From Acholeplasmataceae bacterium (GTDB lineage: Bacteria; Bacillota_I; Bacilli_A; ML615J-28; CAG-698): a DNA stretch of 64,000 nucleotides. Within the stretch, counting starts at the first letter, position 1; the number at the start of each line of letters is the position of its first letter. The position numbers and the translations under genes are program-made. Shown piece after piece: positions 30,394 to 37,473 of the stretch. The notes beneath the pieces are model-generated. The model saw only the letters and a list, made by a program, of their open reading frames with translations. It did not search any database and was not told the origin of the DNA. Location: contig DUTX01000037.1 in assembly GCA_012841865.1 (NCBI GenBank), positions 1 through 64,000 of the forward strand. The letters are read 5' to 3'.

Positions 30394-31586
30394 AAATTAT
30401 GGCTGTAAATGCCGGCAGTTCATCACTGAAATTTAAGTTGTTTATGATGCCGGGTGAAGAAGTAATTACGGAAGGAATTGTAGAAAGAATCGGATGGGAT
30501 GATGCTTATTATACGATTGTTGTAAACGGCGATAAGATTAAAGAAGTTTTACCGATAAAAAATCATAGCGTTGCGGTCAGGAGACTGCTTGATGATTTGA
30601 TCTCAAGAGGGATTTTAAGCGATCTTTCCGAAATCAACGGTGTCGGCCACAGAATCGTTCAAGGCGGAAGTTATTTTCCTGATTCTGTTTTAATTGATGA
30701 AGATGTCGTTCAGAAAATTGATGAGCTGGCTGAACTTGCTCCTCTGCACAACCCTGCGCATCTGACGGGCATTAAGGCTTTTCTGGAAGCATTGCCGGAT
30801 GTACCGAATGTTGCTGTCTTTGATACTTCATTTCATCAGACCATGGATGAAGAAACCTACATGTATGCTCTTCCTTACGAATGGTTTACAAAATATAAGA
30901 TTAGAAAATACGGTGCTCACGGTACCAGCCATAAATATGTCGCCATGAAGGCGGCACAAATTGTTGGTCGTCCGCTTGAGGAGCTAAAAATTGTAACTTG
31001 TCATCTTGGCAACGGTGCCTCGATTGCTGCCGTTAAAGGCGGAAAATGCATCGATACTTCAATGGGACTGACGCCGCTTGAAGGTATTCCGATGGGAACA
31101 AGAAGCGGCAATATTGACCCTGCCGTTGTCGGTGTCATCAGTGAAGCGGAAAACTTAACAGCTGCTGAAGTTGTTGATATCTTAAATAAAAAATCAGGCT
31201 ATCTCGGCGTTTCCGGAGTTTCCAATGACTCGCGTGATTTGGAAGCAGGCATGGCCAAAGGAAACAGACGCTGCAAACTTGCGCTTGATATTCAGTCGAA
31301 AAGAATCGCTGATTATATCGGCAGTTATTTTATCCAGCTTGAAGGTATCGACATCATTGTTTTTACCGCAGGAATCGGGGAAAACAGCAGCCGCTGCCGG
31401 CGCGATGTTTTAAATAGATTGAAAGTTTTAGGTGTAGAAGTCGACGAAGAGGCTAATAATAAGCAAAGACAGATTGTCGAGATTACAACTAAAAATTCAA
31501 AAGTGAGAGCTTTCGTAATTCCAACAAACGAGGAATTGATGATTGCTCGCGATACAGTCCGAATTGCTAGGTTATGCGAAAAGTAA
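30387..31586 (+). CDS. ackA: Acetate kinase
   Basis: 399 residues. It interconverts acetyl phosphate plus ADP and acetate plus ATP. Motifs: VNAGSSSLKFKLF (6-18), HNPAHLTGI (about 120-128), VFDTSFHQTM (about 145-154), HGTSHKYV (about 177-184), HLGNGASI (about 206-213) and FTAGIGENS (about 323-331). It could harvest ATP from acetyl-CoA made by OrtAB, given a phosphotransacetylase elsewhere; no pta is in this window. Confidence 0.98.
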   Translation: MLKIMAVNAGSSSLKFKLFMMPGEEVITEGIVERIGWDDAYYTIVVNGDKIKEVLPIKNHSVAVRRLLDDLISRGILSDLSEINGVGHRIVQGGSYFPDSVLIDEDVVQKIDELAELAPLHNPAHLTGIKAFLEALPDVPNVAVFDTSFHQTMDEETYMYALPYEWFTKYKIRKYGAHGTSHKYVAMKAAQIVGRPLEELKIVTCHLGNGASIAAVKGGKCIDTSMGLTPLEGIPMGTRSGNIDPAVVGVISEAENLTAAEVVDILNKKSGYLGVSGVSNDSRDLEAGMAKGNRRCKLALDIQSKRIADYIGSYFIQLEGIDIIVFTAGIGENSSRCRRDVLNRLKVLGVEVDEEANNKQRQIVEITTKNSKVRAFVIPTNEELMIARDTVRIARLCEK

Positions 31587-33385
31587 AAATATATGTAATT
31601 GTTTTAATTTTAAGCTTAATATTTGTAATTAGTGGTTGTTCCAGGAAGGATAGAGGTAGATTCGATGCCTTCATGGAACAACTTTTTCTTGATTTGGTCT
31701 CCTCGCCTTTAGATGCTAATTTTTTGGTAAAGGACGGGGAAGTTTATGGTTTTGAAAATTTGACGGTCGAACCGCTTACTTTTTCTAAAGAAGCCGAGGC
31801 AGAGTATTATCAGAAATTAAGAAGCATCAAAGAAGAACTCGAAAACTTTAACTATCAAAAACTAGATCCCGCTCGAAAGCTTACTTACCGTGTTGTTTTG
31901 GATTATTTGGAACTATCCTTAAGTTTCGAAGATTACTATTATTACAATAAACCGCTTGGAAGTTATCTTGGCTATCAAGCGCAACTGCCGCTTGTCCTTT
32001 CCGAATATCATTTTTATACCAAAAGGGACCTTGAAAATTATTTTGATTACCTGAAGACTACCCAAACTACCTTTGAAAACATTATTGCATACGAAAAAGA
32101 AAAAGCAGCGAATGGTTTTGGAATGAACGACCGCGAAATCGACGGCATCATTAAACAATGCGAAGATTTCCTCGCCGCCGAAGAAAATTATTTAATTACG
32201 ATTTTCAATAAGAAGATTGAAGATTTACCTTTTCTTTCAATTGATGAAAAGAATCTCTATCGGAAAGAAAATCAAAATTTAGTTATGAACAAGTTTCTTC
32301 CTGCTTATTCCTATCTTACGAAGGAACTAAAAAAATTAAAAGGTAAAGCAGTAAATAAACAAGGCCTTGCTCATTTTGAAAAAGGAAAAGATTATTATCA
32401 AATTCTTTTCCGCGATGCAACGGGCTCGAAGATGAAGGTTTCGGAAGCTTATGAGTATTTGGATAATAAATTTAAAGCAGGTTTTAAGAGTTTGCTTGAG
32501 TTATTAAGGAAGGAACCGGATATTTATGACCGCGTTGAAACCTTGGAAGTGTTTTTGAATAAGAGCTATCAGGAGACTTTTAATTTTTATCTAGAAAATT
32601 ACGCAGATGATTTTCCGAAAATCGGGAATGTCCAGGTCCGAATTGAAAACATTCATGCTTCGCTTGAAGAAAACTCTGCGCCTGCGATGTACTTCTTATC
32701 GCCGATTGATGCGGAAGTGACGGAAGTCATCTATGTAAATAAAAACCTTTTTCGAGAACGCCCGACCTATGCGTTTTTCACCTTGGCTCATGAAGGGATT
32801 CCCGGACATTTATTGCAACACAGTATTTTAAAGAATAGTTCGCTTCCGAAAATCAGGAAGTTGATTGGTTATTCCGCCTATTCCGAAGGCTGGGCGACCT
32901 ATGTTGAAACTTATGTCGGAAAATATACCGAAGTTGAGAGCAATTTACTGTTGGCTTATCATCTTAATGATGAGTTATCATATACTTATCTTTGCTTAGC
33001 CGATATTGGAATCAATTATTATGGTTGGTCTTTTCCAAAGTTTAAAGAATTTATCAATCAGCTTTACAATTTTAGCGATAAAGAAGCGGAAGATATTTAT
33101 TATCAGTTAATTGAAGTTGCAACAAATTACTTAGAGTATTATTTTGGCTATTACAAACTTTTAGATTTAAAAGCTAAATTTATGGAAGCTTCTAAAAACT
33201 TGAATTTAAAAAATTCCGATTATGAGTTTCATAAATTTTATTTAGAAACCGGTCCCGCTCCTTTTTATATCTTAGAAGAGGAGCTGGAAATCTATCTGAA
33301 TCAATTCAAACCGAACCGCAAGGTTCGGTTTTTTAACGAAAACTGCCCCCATTCTCCTAATATATCTACGGAGGTAGTATTATGA
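31574..33385 (+). CDS. DUF885-family lipoprotein, putative metallopeptidase
   Basis: 603 residues. An N-terminal lipoprotein signal ends ISGCS, with Cys22 as the lipidation site. The long helical body carries AHEGIPGHLLQH (about 412-423), the HExxxGH-type zinc motif of the DUF885 family, followed by YSEGWATYVE (about 439-448), which supplies the downstream glutamate. It is probably an extracytoplasmic zinc peptidase of unknown substrate. It overlaps ackA by 13 bases. Its last 25 codons cross an intrinsic terminator, so the true C-terminus may be shorter in relatives. Confidence 0.85.
   Translation: MRKVKIYVIVLILSLIFVISGCSRKDRGRFDAFMEQLFLDLVSSPLDANFLVKDGEVYGFENLTVEPLTFSKEAEAEYYQKLRSIKEELENFNYQKLDPARKLTYRVVLDYLELSLSFEDYYYYNKPLGSYLGYQAQLPLVLSEYHFYTKRDLENYFDYLKTTQTTFENIIAYEKEKAANGFGMNDREIDGIIKQCEDFLAAEENYLITIFNKKIEDLPFLSIDEKNLYRKENQNLVMNKFLPAYSYLTKELKKLKGKAVNKQGLAHFEKGKDYYQILFRDATGSKMKVSEAYEYLDNKFKAGFKSLLELLRKEPDIYDRVETLEVFLNKSYQETFNFYLENYADDFPKIGNVQVRIENIHASLEENSAPAMYFLSPIDAEVTEVIYVNKNLFRERPTYAFFTLAHEGIPGHLLQHSILKNSSLPKIRKLIGYSAYSEGWATYVETYVGKYTEVESNLLLAYHLNDELSYTYLCLADIGINYYGWSFPKFKEFINQLYNFSDKEAEDIYYQLIEVATNYLEYYFGYYKLLDLKAKFMEASKNLNLKNSDYEFHKFYLETGPAPFYILEEELEIYLNQFKPNRKVRFFNENCPHSPNISTEVVL
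33309..33334 (+). terminator. Terminator inside the 3' end of the DUF885 gene
   Basis: A 9-bp stem AACCGAACC/GGTTCGGTT closed by a GCAA tetraloop and followed by T4 plus two T in the stem edge. It lies about 50 bases before the stop codon, so it is translated as coding sequence. Confidence 0.8.
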
Positions 33386-35283
33386 AAAGATTTTTATTGT
33401 TTATAATTTTATTTACTTTTCCCGTAGCAGTCTCGGGAAAAATTATCACCACAGAAAATTTGCTTGATGATTCGATTTTGCAGGATGAAGAGTTAATATT
33501 TACCGAAAGCGATGTTTGTTGGGAAGAAGCAGGCGATTATTATGTCGATTATTTTGATCCGAAAATTAAAACTGAAATCCGGAAGGATATTTTTATCAGA
33601 AACACAGAGGATTTAAAAGCAGGGCTCACATTTATAAGACCTACAGCCAATCTAGAAATTCCCGGCTTAAAGGCAAAAGGTTATCTTCCCTATGGTGAAA
33701 AGGGCTTTTTTATCTACGGAGCTATCTATACTGGTTATCTTCCTTACCAAACTTTGGATAGTTATCTATTTTGTTATCTAGCTTATTTTGAAAACGGAGT
33801 TATGCTTTGGGAAGAAATTTTTCATCCGGAACGTTACGGAACTTTCAGCAACGCCTGTTTAACAGAAAACGGAATTGCATTAATCGGTACATATGATAGT
33901 TTGCAACAAGGGAAGAACATTATCGTTTATGAAGTTACTTCCGAAAAACAAATAACTTTTCAAAAAGAAATTCAAGGCGGCAATGATGATTTCGGACTCA
34001 AAATCTTCTACAACCGCAATAACTTCTACCTTGTCGGGCTGACGATGTCCGATGATATTGATTTTAGGTTCTCGGAAGGCCGAGATATTTTTGTTGGTAA
34101 ATTAACGAAAGAAAAAAGTCTTTCTATTTACCCGCTTTTAAGAGAGGGAAGAGACGAACTTCATGACGCTTATTATCAAGACGGAAGATTTTATTTAGTT
34201 TCAGAAAACAATCAAAATGATAAAAAGACTCTGGAATTAATCGTTTTAAATGAAAATAAAGAATTCGTAAACTTTGATTTGACTTATTTTGGAAGCAACA
34301 ACCAATACCTTATAAGTCCTCTTCAAGATAAAATTTTAATTACTTTTTTAAAAAACGCTTGGGAACTGAAGGCCATGGTTTTAGATCAGGACTTAAAGCT
34401 AAAACAGGAACTAAAAATCGATTTTGAAAAACCGCTAACGGACTATTTTCTTTTCCCAGGTTTGGAAACATATCTTGTTTTTGTAAGCGGAAACCAAAGT
34501 AAAACTTTAATGTTTGCTAGATTTAACCCAAACAAAAATTTGGAAGTATTCTTTGAAAAGGAAATGAACCCTTTAGATAAAGTTGTTGGGATAGCTTATA
34601 ATCAGACGAGTGATCTATTCTTATGTTTGGAAGTTGATTCCGGAAAGTTTACAATCTCTGATTTTAAGTATTTTCGGCTTGAAGAAAGCGTGAACGAAAC
34701 TCAAAATTGTACGTTAAAAGCGAGAAATATATACTATAACGGCAAAAGCTTGGATAAAGAATATCTTTCCGATAATATTCCTGAAAACCCCTATGGTAAA
34801 TTTCAAACACTTTATCGCTTTAGCCAAGGAGATTATTGTTTTTATTTAGCAGATGAACATTATTTTTCAGCAAACACCAATATCAGAAGTGGCGAAGTTT
34901 ATGACCTTGGAACCTGCGTCTATTTTAACGGACGCGGATATCTGAATGGAAAAGAGGTCACTTCTGGAATAAAAATTTTAGAAGCGGGACATTATTTATT
35001 AGAAATTAAGGCGGAAGGAGAAGAAAACCAAGCTTATGTTTTTGAAGTTGCCGAGTTAAGCGAAGTGGAAGAAAACCCGGTTAAAAAAGCAAAGCCTGTA
35101 GTAGGGGATTTTTCCGTAAAGATGGTTCCAAAAAGAGATTTGCCTTATGCGGAAGTGAATTTAAAAGAAAATCCGGTTGCTTCCGATTTTTTCTTCCCTT
35201 CACTTTTAATCGGAATATCAATCGGTACATTATCTGGATTTTTGTTTCCGAAATTAAAATTTAGGAGGAAAGAAAATGTTTAA
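33382..35283 (+). CDS. Large surface protein, signal peptide plus C-terminal membrane anchor
   Basis: 633 residues, not assigned to a named family. Residues 1-19 are a signal peptide. Residues about 85-430 show repeating blades of the form G-GNDDFG...FYLVGLTMSDDIDF...RDIFVGKL, resembling beta-propeller or SBBP-type repeats. Residues about 597-621 form a membrane segment followed by a basic tail (KLKFRRKENV), giving an outside-facing protein. GGAGG precedes the ATG. It overlaps the next, similar protein by 8 bases. Confidence 0.7.
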   Translation: MKRFLLFIILFTFPVAVSGKIITTENLLDDSILQDEELIFTESDVCWEEAGDYYVDYFDPKIKTEIRKDIFIRNTEDLKAGLTFIRPTANLEIPGLKAKGYLPYGEKGFFIYGAIYTGYLPYQTLDSYLFCYLAYFENGVMLWEEIFHPERYGTFSNACLTENGIALIGTYDSLQQGKNIIVYEVTSEKQITFQKEIQGGNDDFGLKIFYNRNNFYLVGLTMSDDIDFRFSEGRDIFVGKLTKEKSLSIYPLLREGRDELHDAYYQDGRFYLVSENNQNDKKTLELIVLNENKEFVNFDLTYFGSNNQYLISPLQDKILITFLKNAWELKAMVLDQDLKLKQELKIDFEKPLTDYFLFPGLETYLVFVSGNQSKTLMFARFNPNKNLEVFFEKEMNPLDKVVGIAYNQTSDLFLCLEVDSGKFTISDFKYFRLEESVNETQNCTLKARNIYYNGKSLDKEYLSDNIPENPYGKFQTLYRFSQGDYCFYLADEHYFSANTNIRSGEVYDLGTCVYFNGRGYLNGKEVTSGIKILEAGHYLLEIKAEGEENQAYVFEVAELSEVEENPVKKAKPVVGDFSVKMVPKRDLPYAEVNLKENPVASDFFFPSLLIGISIGTLSGFLFPKLKFRRKENV

Positions 35284-37459
35284 ATTCTTAGTTATTGTCT
35301 TTAATTTTGTCTTAAGCCTCTTTCCACAATTTCAGGAGGTTGTAAAAGGGAGTTCTGAAAAAGTTATTGATGAGAGGGGTGGATATGTTCTTTATCAAGA
35401 AGAGAAGGTAGTTTATCTTCGTCATAAAGCCGGAACTTGGAGCGTAGAAATCCCAAAAGCAGATAGCTATCATACAACTCTTAAAAATGGAAATTACCTT
35501 TATCTATTTAATCTTGATGGGATTTGGGTGTTAAGAGAATATGATTCTTCCGGAAAATTAGTCACAGCAAAAACCCTTTGTCTCAATCCCTTAGCTGTAG
35601 AAGAGGTTGTTTATGCTGAGGGACTTTATCTTTTCGGAAGTATTAGCAATTATTCGGAAGAATTGTTTCAAGAAAAAAGGGGAAAGCGCTCCGGCGAAGA
35701 TGCGATTGTGCTCGCCTTTAATGAAAATTATGAACTTAAGGATTTTCAAGTTTTCGGCGGTAGTTTGAACGAAAGTTTTTTAAAAGCGGAAGCAACAGAC
35801 GAATACTTTTATGTAGTCGGAAGAAAGGATCCGGAAGGAGGCGGTGATTTTGGAAATGGCGGCACAGTTCAAGATTCAATCTTTGTTGCGAAATTAGATC
35901 GAAAGCTTAAGTTGGTAGATTATTATATTCTAGCCAGTAATTCTGAAATTTTGGATTTTACTTTTCATAAAGACTATTTTTATCTTGCCTTGAAATCTAG
36001 TTTATACAAATTCGGAGGTGATTTAAAAGTTTACGGAAAGGTAAATTTTGAAAATAACTATTTTGCTGCGAAAATGGCTGCTTATAATAAATATCTCGTT
36101 TTTGGAAACGGAAAAATCAAAATTATCGATATTCTTGACTTAACAACAAGAGTTCTTGATTCAGAATACATTACCTCTGATACAAAAGTAAAAATCTTTC
36201 CGGAAACAATTCTTTTAGAAAGGCCCGAGGAAAATCTAAAATATGATTTTGTGAGCTTGGAAAACTTCATTGTGTTAGCTGAGTATAATCCCCAAATTGA
36301 GACACCGAAAACCGTATTCTCAATTTTTGGAAAGGCGAAATTTATCTCTGAGGAATCCGAACCTTTTTTTGATCCCCAAATTCACGGTGTTTATGAAAAA
36401 ACTTTTAATTTTAAAATTCAATCCGATTTAAATTTTACCGTAAAAAGAAAAGTAGAGGTCCCTTTTCGGGCCAATGTCAGCAATAACGGAATTTATCCGA
36501 GCGGTTATCGTTTACAGTTTACGGGATATGCGAAACTTGACGGTCAAAACATTTTAAACAATCAAATTGTCACTAAGGAAGGACTACATCAATTGGTTTT
36601 GTTTGATCTTTCCGGAAAGAAAACGGAAATAAATTTTTATATTTCTAAAAAACAAATAGCTTTTACAGAAAATTCAATTTTTGAATGGGATTTTAAAGCG
36701 ACCATCAAGGAACCGATATTTTTAGAGTTGAAACTTTCTGGATTTGAGGAAAGGGAAATTCAAGGGATTGTTATTGATGGCGATACCAAACGGAATTTGC
36801 TTTATAACCCGGCTACCGGCATCCTTTCGATTCCGCTTGATCCTGTAGCTGATGTTGGAATCAAACAATATTATTTGGAAAAGTTATTATATTTAGAAAA
36901 CGGCAAATTACTAAGTCTTCCTCTTAATAAAGTCTTAACAGCAAACATTATTGGTTTAAGCCCAAACTTTTCCCTTAAACAAATCTCCGCTTCCGAATAT
37001 GAAATTTCTCTTGAAGATGCTAACCAAGTCCTTAGATATCTGGAAGTAATCGCAACAAGCGCCAAGGAAGAGCACCGGGAGATTTACCCACTTGGGACCG
37101 GTAATATAAACCTTTCTGGTTTAAGTTCTGAAGATTACCGCCTTGAGGTTAATTTGCTTTATGATACCGGAACCAAGGAGAAAGAAAAATTAACACTTTT
37201 CACCGGAAAATTAAAAGGGGGAAACGAAAAAATCTGCGAGCTAAATATATTAGATAAGGGCCAAAGTTTGGAGAAGTTTAAGCTTTCCTTTTCAAATCAA
37301 GTTTTAAAGTTAACTTCCCAAGATAAACCCCTTTACGAAAAGAATAACTCAAAAATTTATAAATACCTTATTTTCGGAATTTTGGGAGGAGGGGTAAGTT
37401 TTTCTTTAGTAACCTGCTTCCAAAAGTTTAGAAGAAGAAGGAAAAAACGAAGTGCCTAA
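35276..37459 (+). CDS. Large surface protein, paralogue of its upstream neighbour
   Basis: 727 residues with the same plan as the preceding protein: signal peptide (1-18), a propeller-like region (about 40-280, for example GGSLNESFLKAEATDEYFYVVG and DSIFVAKLD), then beta-rich modules (about 330-690), a membrane segment (about 697-715) and a strongly basic tail (KFRRRRKKRS). No catalytic motif or known domain was recognised. Tandem arrangement and overlap suggest the two act together at the cell surface. Confidence 0.7.
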   Translation: MFKFLVIVFNFVLSLFPQFQEVVKGSSEKVIDERGGYVLYQEEKVVYLRHKAGTWSVEIPKADSYHTTLKNGNYLYLFNLDGIWVLREYDSSGKLVTAKTLCLNPLAVEEVVYAEGLYLFGSISNYSEELFQEKRGKRSGEDAIVLAFNENYELKDFQVFGGSLNESFLKAEATDEYFYVVGRKDPEGGGDFGNGGTVQDSIFVAKLDRKLKLVDYYILASNSEILDFTFHKDYFYLALKSSLYKFGGDLKVYGKVNFENNYFAAKMAAYNKYLVFGNGKIKIIDILDLTTRVLDSEYITSDTKVKIFPETILLERPEENLKYDFVSLENFIVLAEYNPQIETPKTVFSIFGKAKFISEESEPFFDPQIHGVYEKTFNFKIQSDLNFTVKRKVEVPFRANVSNNGIYPSGYRLQFTGYAKLDGQNILNNQIVTKEGLHQLVLFDLSGKKTEINFYISKKQIAFTENSIFEWDFKATIKEPIFLELKLSGFEEREIQGIVIDGDTKRNLLYNPATGILSIPLDPVADVGIKQYYLEKLLYLENGKLLSLPLNKVLTANIIGLSPNFSLKQISASEYEISLEDANQVLRYLEVIATSAKEEHREIYPLGTGNINLSGLSSEDYRLEVNLLYDTGTKEKEKLTLFTGKLKGGNEKICELNILDKGQSLEKFKLSFSNQVLKLTSQDKPLYEKNNSKIYKYLIFGILGGGVSFSLVTCFQKFRRRRKKRSA

Positions 37460-37473
37460 GCGCACTTTTTTCT
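37450..37473 (+). terminator. Intrinsic terminator after the surface-protein pair
   Basis: AAGTGC/GCACTT stem overlapping the stop codon, followed by a T-rich run. Confidence 0.75.

Follow-up and report, generated by a model that had tools for sequence, protein, structure and literature searches.

We studied two large adjacent genes, which we call A and B, in a stretch of 64,000 nucleotides from an Acholeplasmataceae bacterium (contig DUTX01000037.1, positions 1 to 64,000; hereafter the window). A and B are ancient-looking paralogues that stay together across two families of their order, and each encodes a protein with a predicted beta-propeller head on an immunoglobulin (Ig)-like stalk. We tentatively propose, with confidence a little short of even, that their products form an obligate two-subunit complex, in a 1:1 ratio, that serves binding or adhesion at the cell surface. 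The two genes are:

33382..35283, + strand: gene A, open reading frame of 633 residues
35276..37459, + strand: gene B, open reading frame of 727 residues, paralogue of A

Both reading frames, and their overlap of 8 bases, had been pointed out in an earlier inspection of the letters (the original prediction) and were present at these coordinates. The possibility that they are chance open reading frames was rejected: single-sequence searches matched A in 34/60 genomes and B in 34/60, the own genome included, and the B profile matched 45/60, a count that takes in the own genome and weak partial matches. Neither window protein was assigned to a family by Pfam or NCBIfam, with merely two sub-threshold Pfam rows for B, which agrees with the earlier statement that no characterised relative could be recognised. 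Scattered single-member Pfam matches among A and B family members were taken as noise, and the weak matches that phmmer gave for B, to a chorismate synthase (E 0.41) and a fusion glycoprotein (E 1.1), were at chance level.

A duplication had also been suspected. A direct BLASTP comparison of A with B gave an E value of 0.19, which by itself does not show paralogy; comparison of the two family profiles did bear it out, with 99.7% probability and an E value of 2.5e-27 over 400 aligned columns. Beyond A and B, a search of the own genome with the A profile turned up no other relative: three of its matches fell within the two genes and one on C53 (L141), which reads by sequence as a HAD-type phosphatase and was discarded.

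The two genes behave as a unit. Among 43 genomes sampled from the family of the window (f1) and a second family of the same order (f2), A and B were adjacent or fused in 37, some of which have one gene cut by a contig end (G042, for instance, retains only the end of A). In three of the remaining six (G009, G021 and G025) the contig ends beside the single gene seen, and in the other three (G017, G020 and G027) the slot is unassembled: dnaE was likewise not found in G020 and G027, apart from weak partial matches, and the G017 contig stops no more than about 370 bases from dnaE. An assembled slot missing one of the two genes was not seen among the 43 genomes. In all 34 unfused pairs, a candidate B start lay at most 11 nucleotides from the A stop, on either side. 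In G012 the genes are fused in one frame of 1364 residues (L073, 7258-11352, - strand), and in G016 (L077, L044) the B frame starts inside the A stalk; the rest of A lies on a second contig, whose terminal 127 bases match an end of the first exactly. In both fusions two helices with a basic stretch between them link the halves, an arrangement that would leave both heads outside. The proximity of stops and starts and the two fused genes lend indirect support to the joint function that had been supposed from the overlap. The two fusion genera do not group together in a weakly resolved tree of the stalks (see below). In one genome (G039, L096) B is broken by an in-frame TGA, and it is intact in G031 of the same genus; the break may be an assembly error or recent decay.

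The layout of the proteins was read from Kyte-Doolittle hydropathy, the sole basis for the signal-like segments, and from AlphaFold2 models built on the family alignments (33 rows for A, 32 for B), with predicted local distance difference test scores of 86.7 for A and 89.9 for B. In A, a signal-like segment is followed by an N-terminal Ig-like domain, the propeller, the Ig-like stalk, the membrane helix and a basic tail:

33382..33438, + strand: A, signal-peptide-like hydrophobic stretch, residues 1-19 (hydropathy only)
33439..33624, + strand: A, N-terminal Ig-like domain, residues 20-81 (reading of the model)
33625..34698, + strand: A, beta-propeller, residues 82-439 (28 strands in the model, so seven blades)
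34699..35061, + strand: A, Ig-like stalk module, residues 440-560 (model; best-conserved part of A)
35191..35259, + strand: A, C-terminal membrane helix, residues 604-626 (hydropathy and model)
35260..35280, + strand: A, final part of the short basic tail, residues 627-633 (hydropathy and charge)
35276..35326, + strand: B, N-terminal hydrophobic signal-like segment, residues 1-17 (hydropathy)
35327..36265, + strand: B, beta-propeller, residues 18-330 (28 strands, at 19-327, in the model, so seven blades)
35825..35863, + strand: B, conserved propeller loop K184-G196 (GGDFGNGG in the window; the same form in 12/32 B rows)
36332..36655, + strand: B, Ig-like stalk module, residues 353-460 (model; best-conserved part of B)
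36683..37261, + strand: B, two further beta-domains, residues 470-560 and 563-662 (secondary structure of the model)
37352..37423, + strand: B, C-terminal membrane helix, residues 693-716 (hydropathy and model)
37424..37456, + strand: B, basic tail, residues 717-727 (hydropathy and charge)

The N-terminal hydrophobic segment, single C-terminal helix and basic tail of the original prediction were thus found by hydropathy in both proteins, which are predicted to be, and probably are, type I membrane proteins exposed on the outside of the cell membrane. The N-terminal segment of B is weaker in a few family members. The tail has a net charge of at least +2 in 32/34 A rows (of the other two, one is cut by a contig end and one has net charge 0) and of at least +3 in 33/33 B rows. 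A lipobox pattern occurred in none of the 65 A and B rows, and an LPxTG-like string in 2/33 A rows and 1/32 B rows, none of them a window protein. The propeller heads of the original prediction likewise reappeared in the models, probably with seven four-stranded blades each; the blade number stays a prediction because one Foldseek row for B (rank 9) is an eight-bladed design. What did not stand is D-x-F-V-x-K-L as a repeated blade signature, since the strict form occurs once in A (DIFVGKL, residues 235-241) and B has a single variant, DSIFVAKL, one residue longer. Overlooked at that time were the Ig-like stalks, the N-terminal Ig-like domain of A and the two extra beta-domains of B, the second of which we read as FN3-like in the model. 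The family PF16403 (Bact_surface_Ig-like) matched 5/33 A members at E ≤ 0.1, weakly (best 1.9e-4) and at a position that was not given; it did not match A of the window and is absent among the 10 families listed for B.

In both proteins the stalk, and not the head, has the highest mean conservation (1.71 bits per site versus 1.22 for the propeller in A; 1.93 versus 1.38 in B). No invariant or nearly invariant column was found in the A head of the family alignment. In the B head the loop 184-195 is strongly conserved (K184, F192, N194, G195). The proteins as a whole change fast: among the 26 genomes that contribute A and B to the alignments and whose dnaE frame exceeds 800 residues, median pairwise identity was 17.8% for A and 19.8% for B, compared with 44.3% for dnaE.

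Other families of the class carry a single related gene at the same place, between ackA and dnaE. The A profile matched 63/198 class genomes, f1 and f2 included, many of them merely in an Ig or blade stretch. Among 20 loci examined from these matches, 15 hold a single related gene, one a pair (G032) and four something else. Also set aside were L143, whose sequence suggests Ig-like repeats plus a deacetylase-like domain, and L142 and L144, which lie outside the slot. Together with L099 and L100 this makes 17 single-gene loci, 15 of which have the gene between ackA and dnaE, while in L134 only ackA, and in L135 only dnaE, lies next to it. The proteins measure 410-553 residues; 15/17 contain two to four Ig-like repeats, the last of which scores best and is the most like the A/B stalk. 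By our reading of the sequences, a propeller-like head with one Ig module occurs only in the f4 members L135 and L099. Hydropathy over 19 C-terminal residues reaches at least 1.6 in 14/17 of the proteins, and L099 has no C-terminal hydrophobic helix. The single gene shares with A and B the membrane-protein layout, the Ig-like repeats and the neighbours, and differs in being one gene, usually a shorter one. The unnamed single gene for an Ig-repeat membrane protein in this conserved slot (L125-L133, L136-L139, L099 and L100) is an observation in its own right.

A tree of the stalks (87 rows, 99 columns) bears on the age of the duplication. One branch, with support 95/93, separates all 35 B rows and three single-gene rows, those of f22, from all 35 A rows and 14 single-gene rows. 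The A group and the B group each span f1 and f2, which implies that the duplication predates the split between the two families; it looks old, and a recent local duplication was not supported, as the separation of A rows from B rows runs through both families. The simplest reading is that the single slot gene came first and was duplicated on the lineage leading to f1 and f2. This tree is weak, with 39/84 inner forks open, a bootstrap that had not settled and an open root; long branches meet in it (L072_A with L137_X), and neither A nor B forms a clade cleanly apart from the single-gene rows.

A dependence of the pair on the cell wall was rejected. With the penicillin-binding protein (PBP) transpeptidase domain PF00905 and FtsW/RodA (PF01098) as wall markers, both were present in 22 of the 43 f1/f2 genomes, of which 21 have the pair (in G025 it is cut), and both were absent from 19, of which 15 have it; the four others (G017, G020, G021 and G027) are the cut or unassembled loci mentioned above. 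G009 and G040 have PF00905 only. Several of the 19 marker-free genomes are incomplete metagenome-assembled genomes (down to 61%), though the two markers agree and some of the 19 are 97-98% complete. The window genome (1.95 Mb in 189 contigs, 98.1% complete, 5.58% contaminated) has both markers, and contamination is an unlikely source of them because G001 and G002, of the same genus, have them too. The pair therefore neither requires nor marks a wall. Present in every sampled f1/f2 genome in which the locus was assembled, with wall genes or not, it is a candidate for a core component of the envelope and a target for asking what bacteria heading to wall-less life retain on their surface. Separately from the pair, it was observed that 19/43 genomes of one order lack PBP transpeptidase and FtsW/RodA while close relatives retain them; wall loss may have happened repeatedly within this order, which makes it a useful clade for studying wall loss.

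The proposal combines the gene structure, paralogy, pairing, fusions, conservation pattern and co-occurrence with wall genes, as observed, with folds and topology as predicted. A and B would form a constitutive, non-enzymatic complex at the exterior side of the cytoplasmic membrane. Each would be exported and anchored by its one C-terminal helix, leaving the short basic tail in the cytoplasm and the seven-bladed head outside on its Ig-like stalk. Translational coupling, we infer, would provide similar amounts of the two proteins; the conserved Ig stalks would pair A with B, or else serve as the docking site for a constant partner in the membrane, and the rapidly diverging heads would bind an extracellular polymer or surface, in an adhesive or other envelope role. 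The distances of A and B also correlate beyond those of dnaE in the 26 genomes (partial r 0.28, as high in 0/2000 permutations), a weak support given the modest r and saturated distances.

Several points besides this weakness weigh against the proposal. Contact between A and B and the binding of a ligand are themselves inferred, and the B starts are candidates by position and not mapped starts. The conserved loop in the B head is unexpected if heads merely vary. Moreover, retention at one place in small genomes would equally suit a housekeeping function in the envelope.

This last point leads to the strongest competing explanation, namely that A and B are factors of envelope biogenesis or of export and assembly, their propellers serving as exoplasmic protein-protein scaffolds that fold or place membrane or secreted proteins. 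We consider this possible, with perhaps a one-in-four sort of plausibility. It would fit the fixed place in small genomes with and without wall genes and the single related gene in the same slot of other families, and the Foldseek list of A includes a BAM-complex chain (BamB by our reading) and an EMC chain, at ranks 12 and 45. Yet that list is full of generic propellers, the fast sequence change reported above would be unusual for such a factor, and no export gene was present among the identified neighbours.

Comparison with solved structures raised the question of an enzyme. The best fold match of A was the propeller of CylK (Z 28.2, root-mean-square deviation 3.6, 338 residues), and for B many propellers were tied near Z 19, DDB1 being first (19.8) and CylK at 18.9. 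The family profiles also matched CylK by sequence (hmmsearch; E 5.6e-6 for A, 8.2e-5 for B). A clear match to an enzyme family, which the original prediction had named as evidence against its view, was thus obtained for the propeller, though only there. Because the propeller dominates the fold lists, they barely probe the stalks and the extra domains of B, and a family's absence from them does not exclude it. The likeness to the alkylating enzymes CylK and BrtB is that of a related propeller, by profile and by fold. In the available portion of its description, CylK consists of an N-terminal Ca2+-binding domain fused to the propeller, with the active site between them and Arg105 supplied by the N-terminal domain (PMC8916777). 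The aligned ranges in A and B lie within the propeller, and no N-terminal Ca2+-binding domain is evident in their models (equivalents of Arg105 and Tyr473 were not superposed): ahead of the propeller there is nothing of size in B and only about 60 residues in A. That A and B act enzymatically at the surface, as a CylK-like alkylating enzyme or as a propeller lyase or hydrolase, is therefore improbable in our estimate; the conserved loop of B and the rank of CylK as the best profile and fold match of the A head speak for it, but the CylK active site requires a residue from a domain that has no evident counterpart in the models, and the A head has no nearly invariant column and is less conserved than the stalk. 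A sensor whose head binds a ligand and relays the signal into the cell by way of the tail or a partner is just as improbable. The extracellular sensor propellers BT4663 and BT4673 do figure among the Foldseek matches, but the cytoplasmic tails are very short and mostly of basic residues, and no kinase or regulator was found among the identified neighbours.

Those neighbours are, in order, a metallophosphoesterase gene (28979), a YtxK-like methyltransferase gene (29428), ackA (30387), a DUF885 gene (31574), A, B, dnaE (37524) and pfkA (40594), where the names ackA, dnaE and pfkA were assigned by reading the sequences, with no family search behind them. The genes are tightly packed from 28979 through the end of B. 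Two further features flank the pair:

31574..33385, + strand: DUF885 lipoprotein-like gene directly upstream of A, overlapping it by 4 bases
37449..37468, + strand: terminator-like hairpin and T run at the end of B, before dnaE (pattern match only)

Terminator-like sites in the region numbered 18, compared with 10.6 expected, by the same kind of pattern match. The DUF885 gene contains a HEGIPGH stretch and overlaps both ackA and A; it is perhaps a secreted metallopeptidase-like newcomer to the operon. It was rejected as a part of the system, and is regarded as a neighbour, because it was seen between ackA and A in only four genomes (G000, the window genome, G001, G003 and G004); in G002 the contig starts inside A.

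Apart from CylK, three known systems invite comparison with the proposed two-subunit complex. The wording of the A and B blades resembles the SBBP-type propeller repeat (PF06739). In the own genome, however, the model of this family matched neither A nor B at E ≤ 10, and it was also absent from the Pfam scans of the window proteins and of A and B family members. The second is integrin alphaM, the next fold match of A (Z 23.6, root-mean-square deviation 6.0, 376 residues, model residues 82-495). Integrin alpha chains have a seven-bladed propeller, an Ig-like leg, one transmembrane helix and a short tail, and work in a heterodimer. By their AlphaFold2 models and hydropathy, A and B share the propeller, Ig-like leg, single membrane helix and short tail, a likeness in layout only. 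The difference lies in the Ca2+ sites: DxDxDG-like loops, as defined in the accessible part of PMC3192720, occur in 0/33 A and 0/32 B rows. A loose FG-x-G string, looser than the FG-GAP/Cage motif that integrin alpha propellers have in all seven blades, is found in 8/33 A rows and 15/32 B rows, nearly always once per protein, and the FG-GAP family was not found in Pfam scans of the window proteins or of A and B family members. It is a bolder and rather unlikely idea that A and B are an integrin-like receptor by convergence, that is, an obligate two-chain, propeller-headed and Ig-legged adhesion complex in the core envelope of an order that gave up its peptidoglycan wall, perhaps on more than one occasion, and that they may carry part of the wall's surface role. 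The pair in any case allows one to ask whether two-chain propeller receptors arose independently in bacteria.

The nearest precedent in layout comes from the Hepatoplasmataceae. A limited literature search, with most subscription papers outside its reach, found no report of a tandem A/B pair. As far as its description could be consulted, the protein HCTKY_2170 (BDV02923.1; 991 residues) is predicted to have a seven-bladed propeller at its N terminus along with four Ig-like folds, belongs to a set of seven to ten RCC1-like proteins in each genome, and is discussed among possible host-interaction proteins (PMC10928387). Its likeness to A and B, judged from this partial description and not from sequence, is that of a Mollicute propeller with Ig-like folds; the difference is that no tandem pair is mentioned in the portion consulted (PMC10928387). 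The propeller-plus-Ig layout thus already has a precedent in the Hepatoplasmataceae, and the tandem pair A and B is a variant of it.

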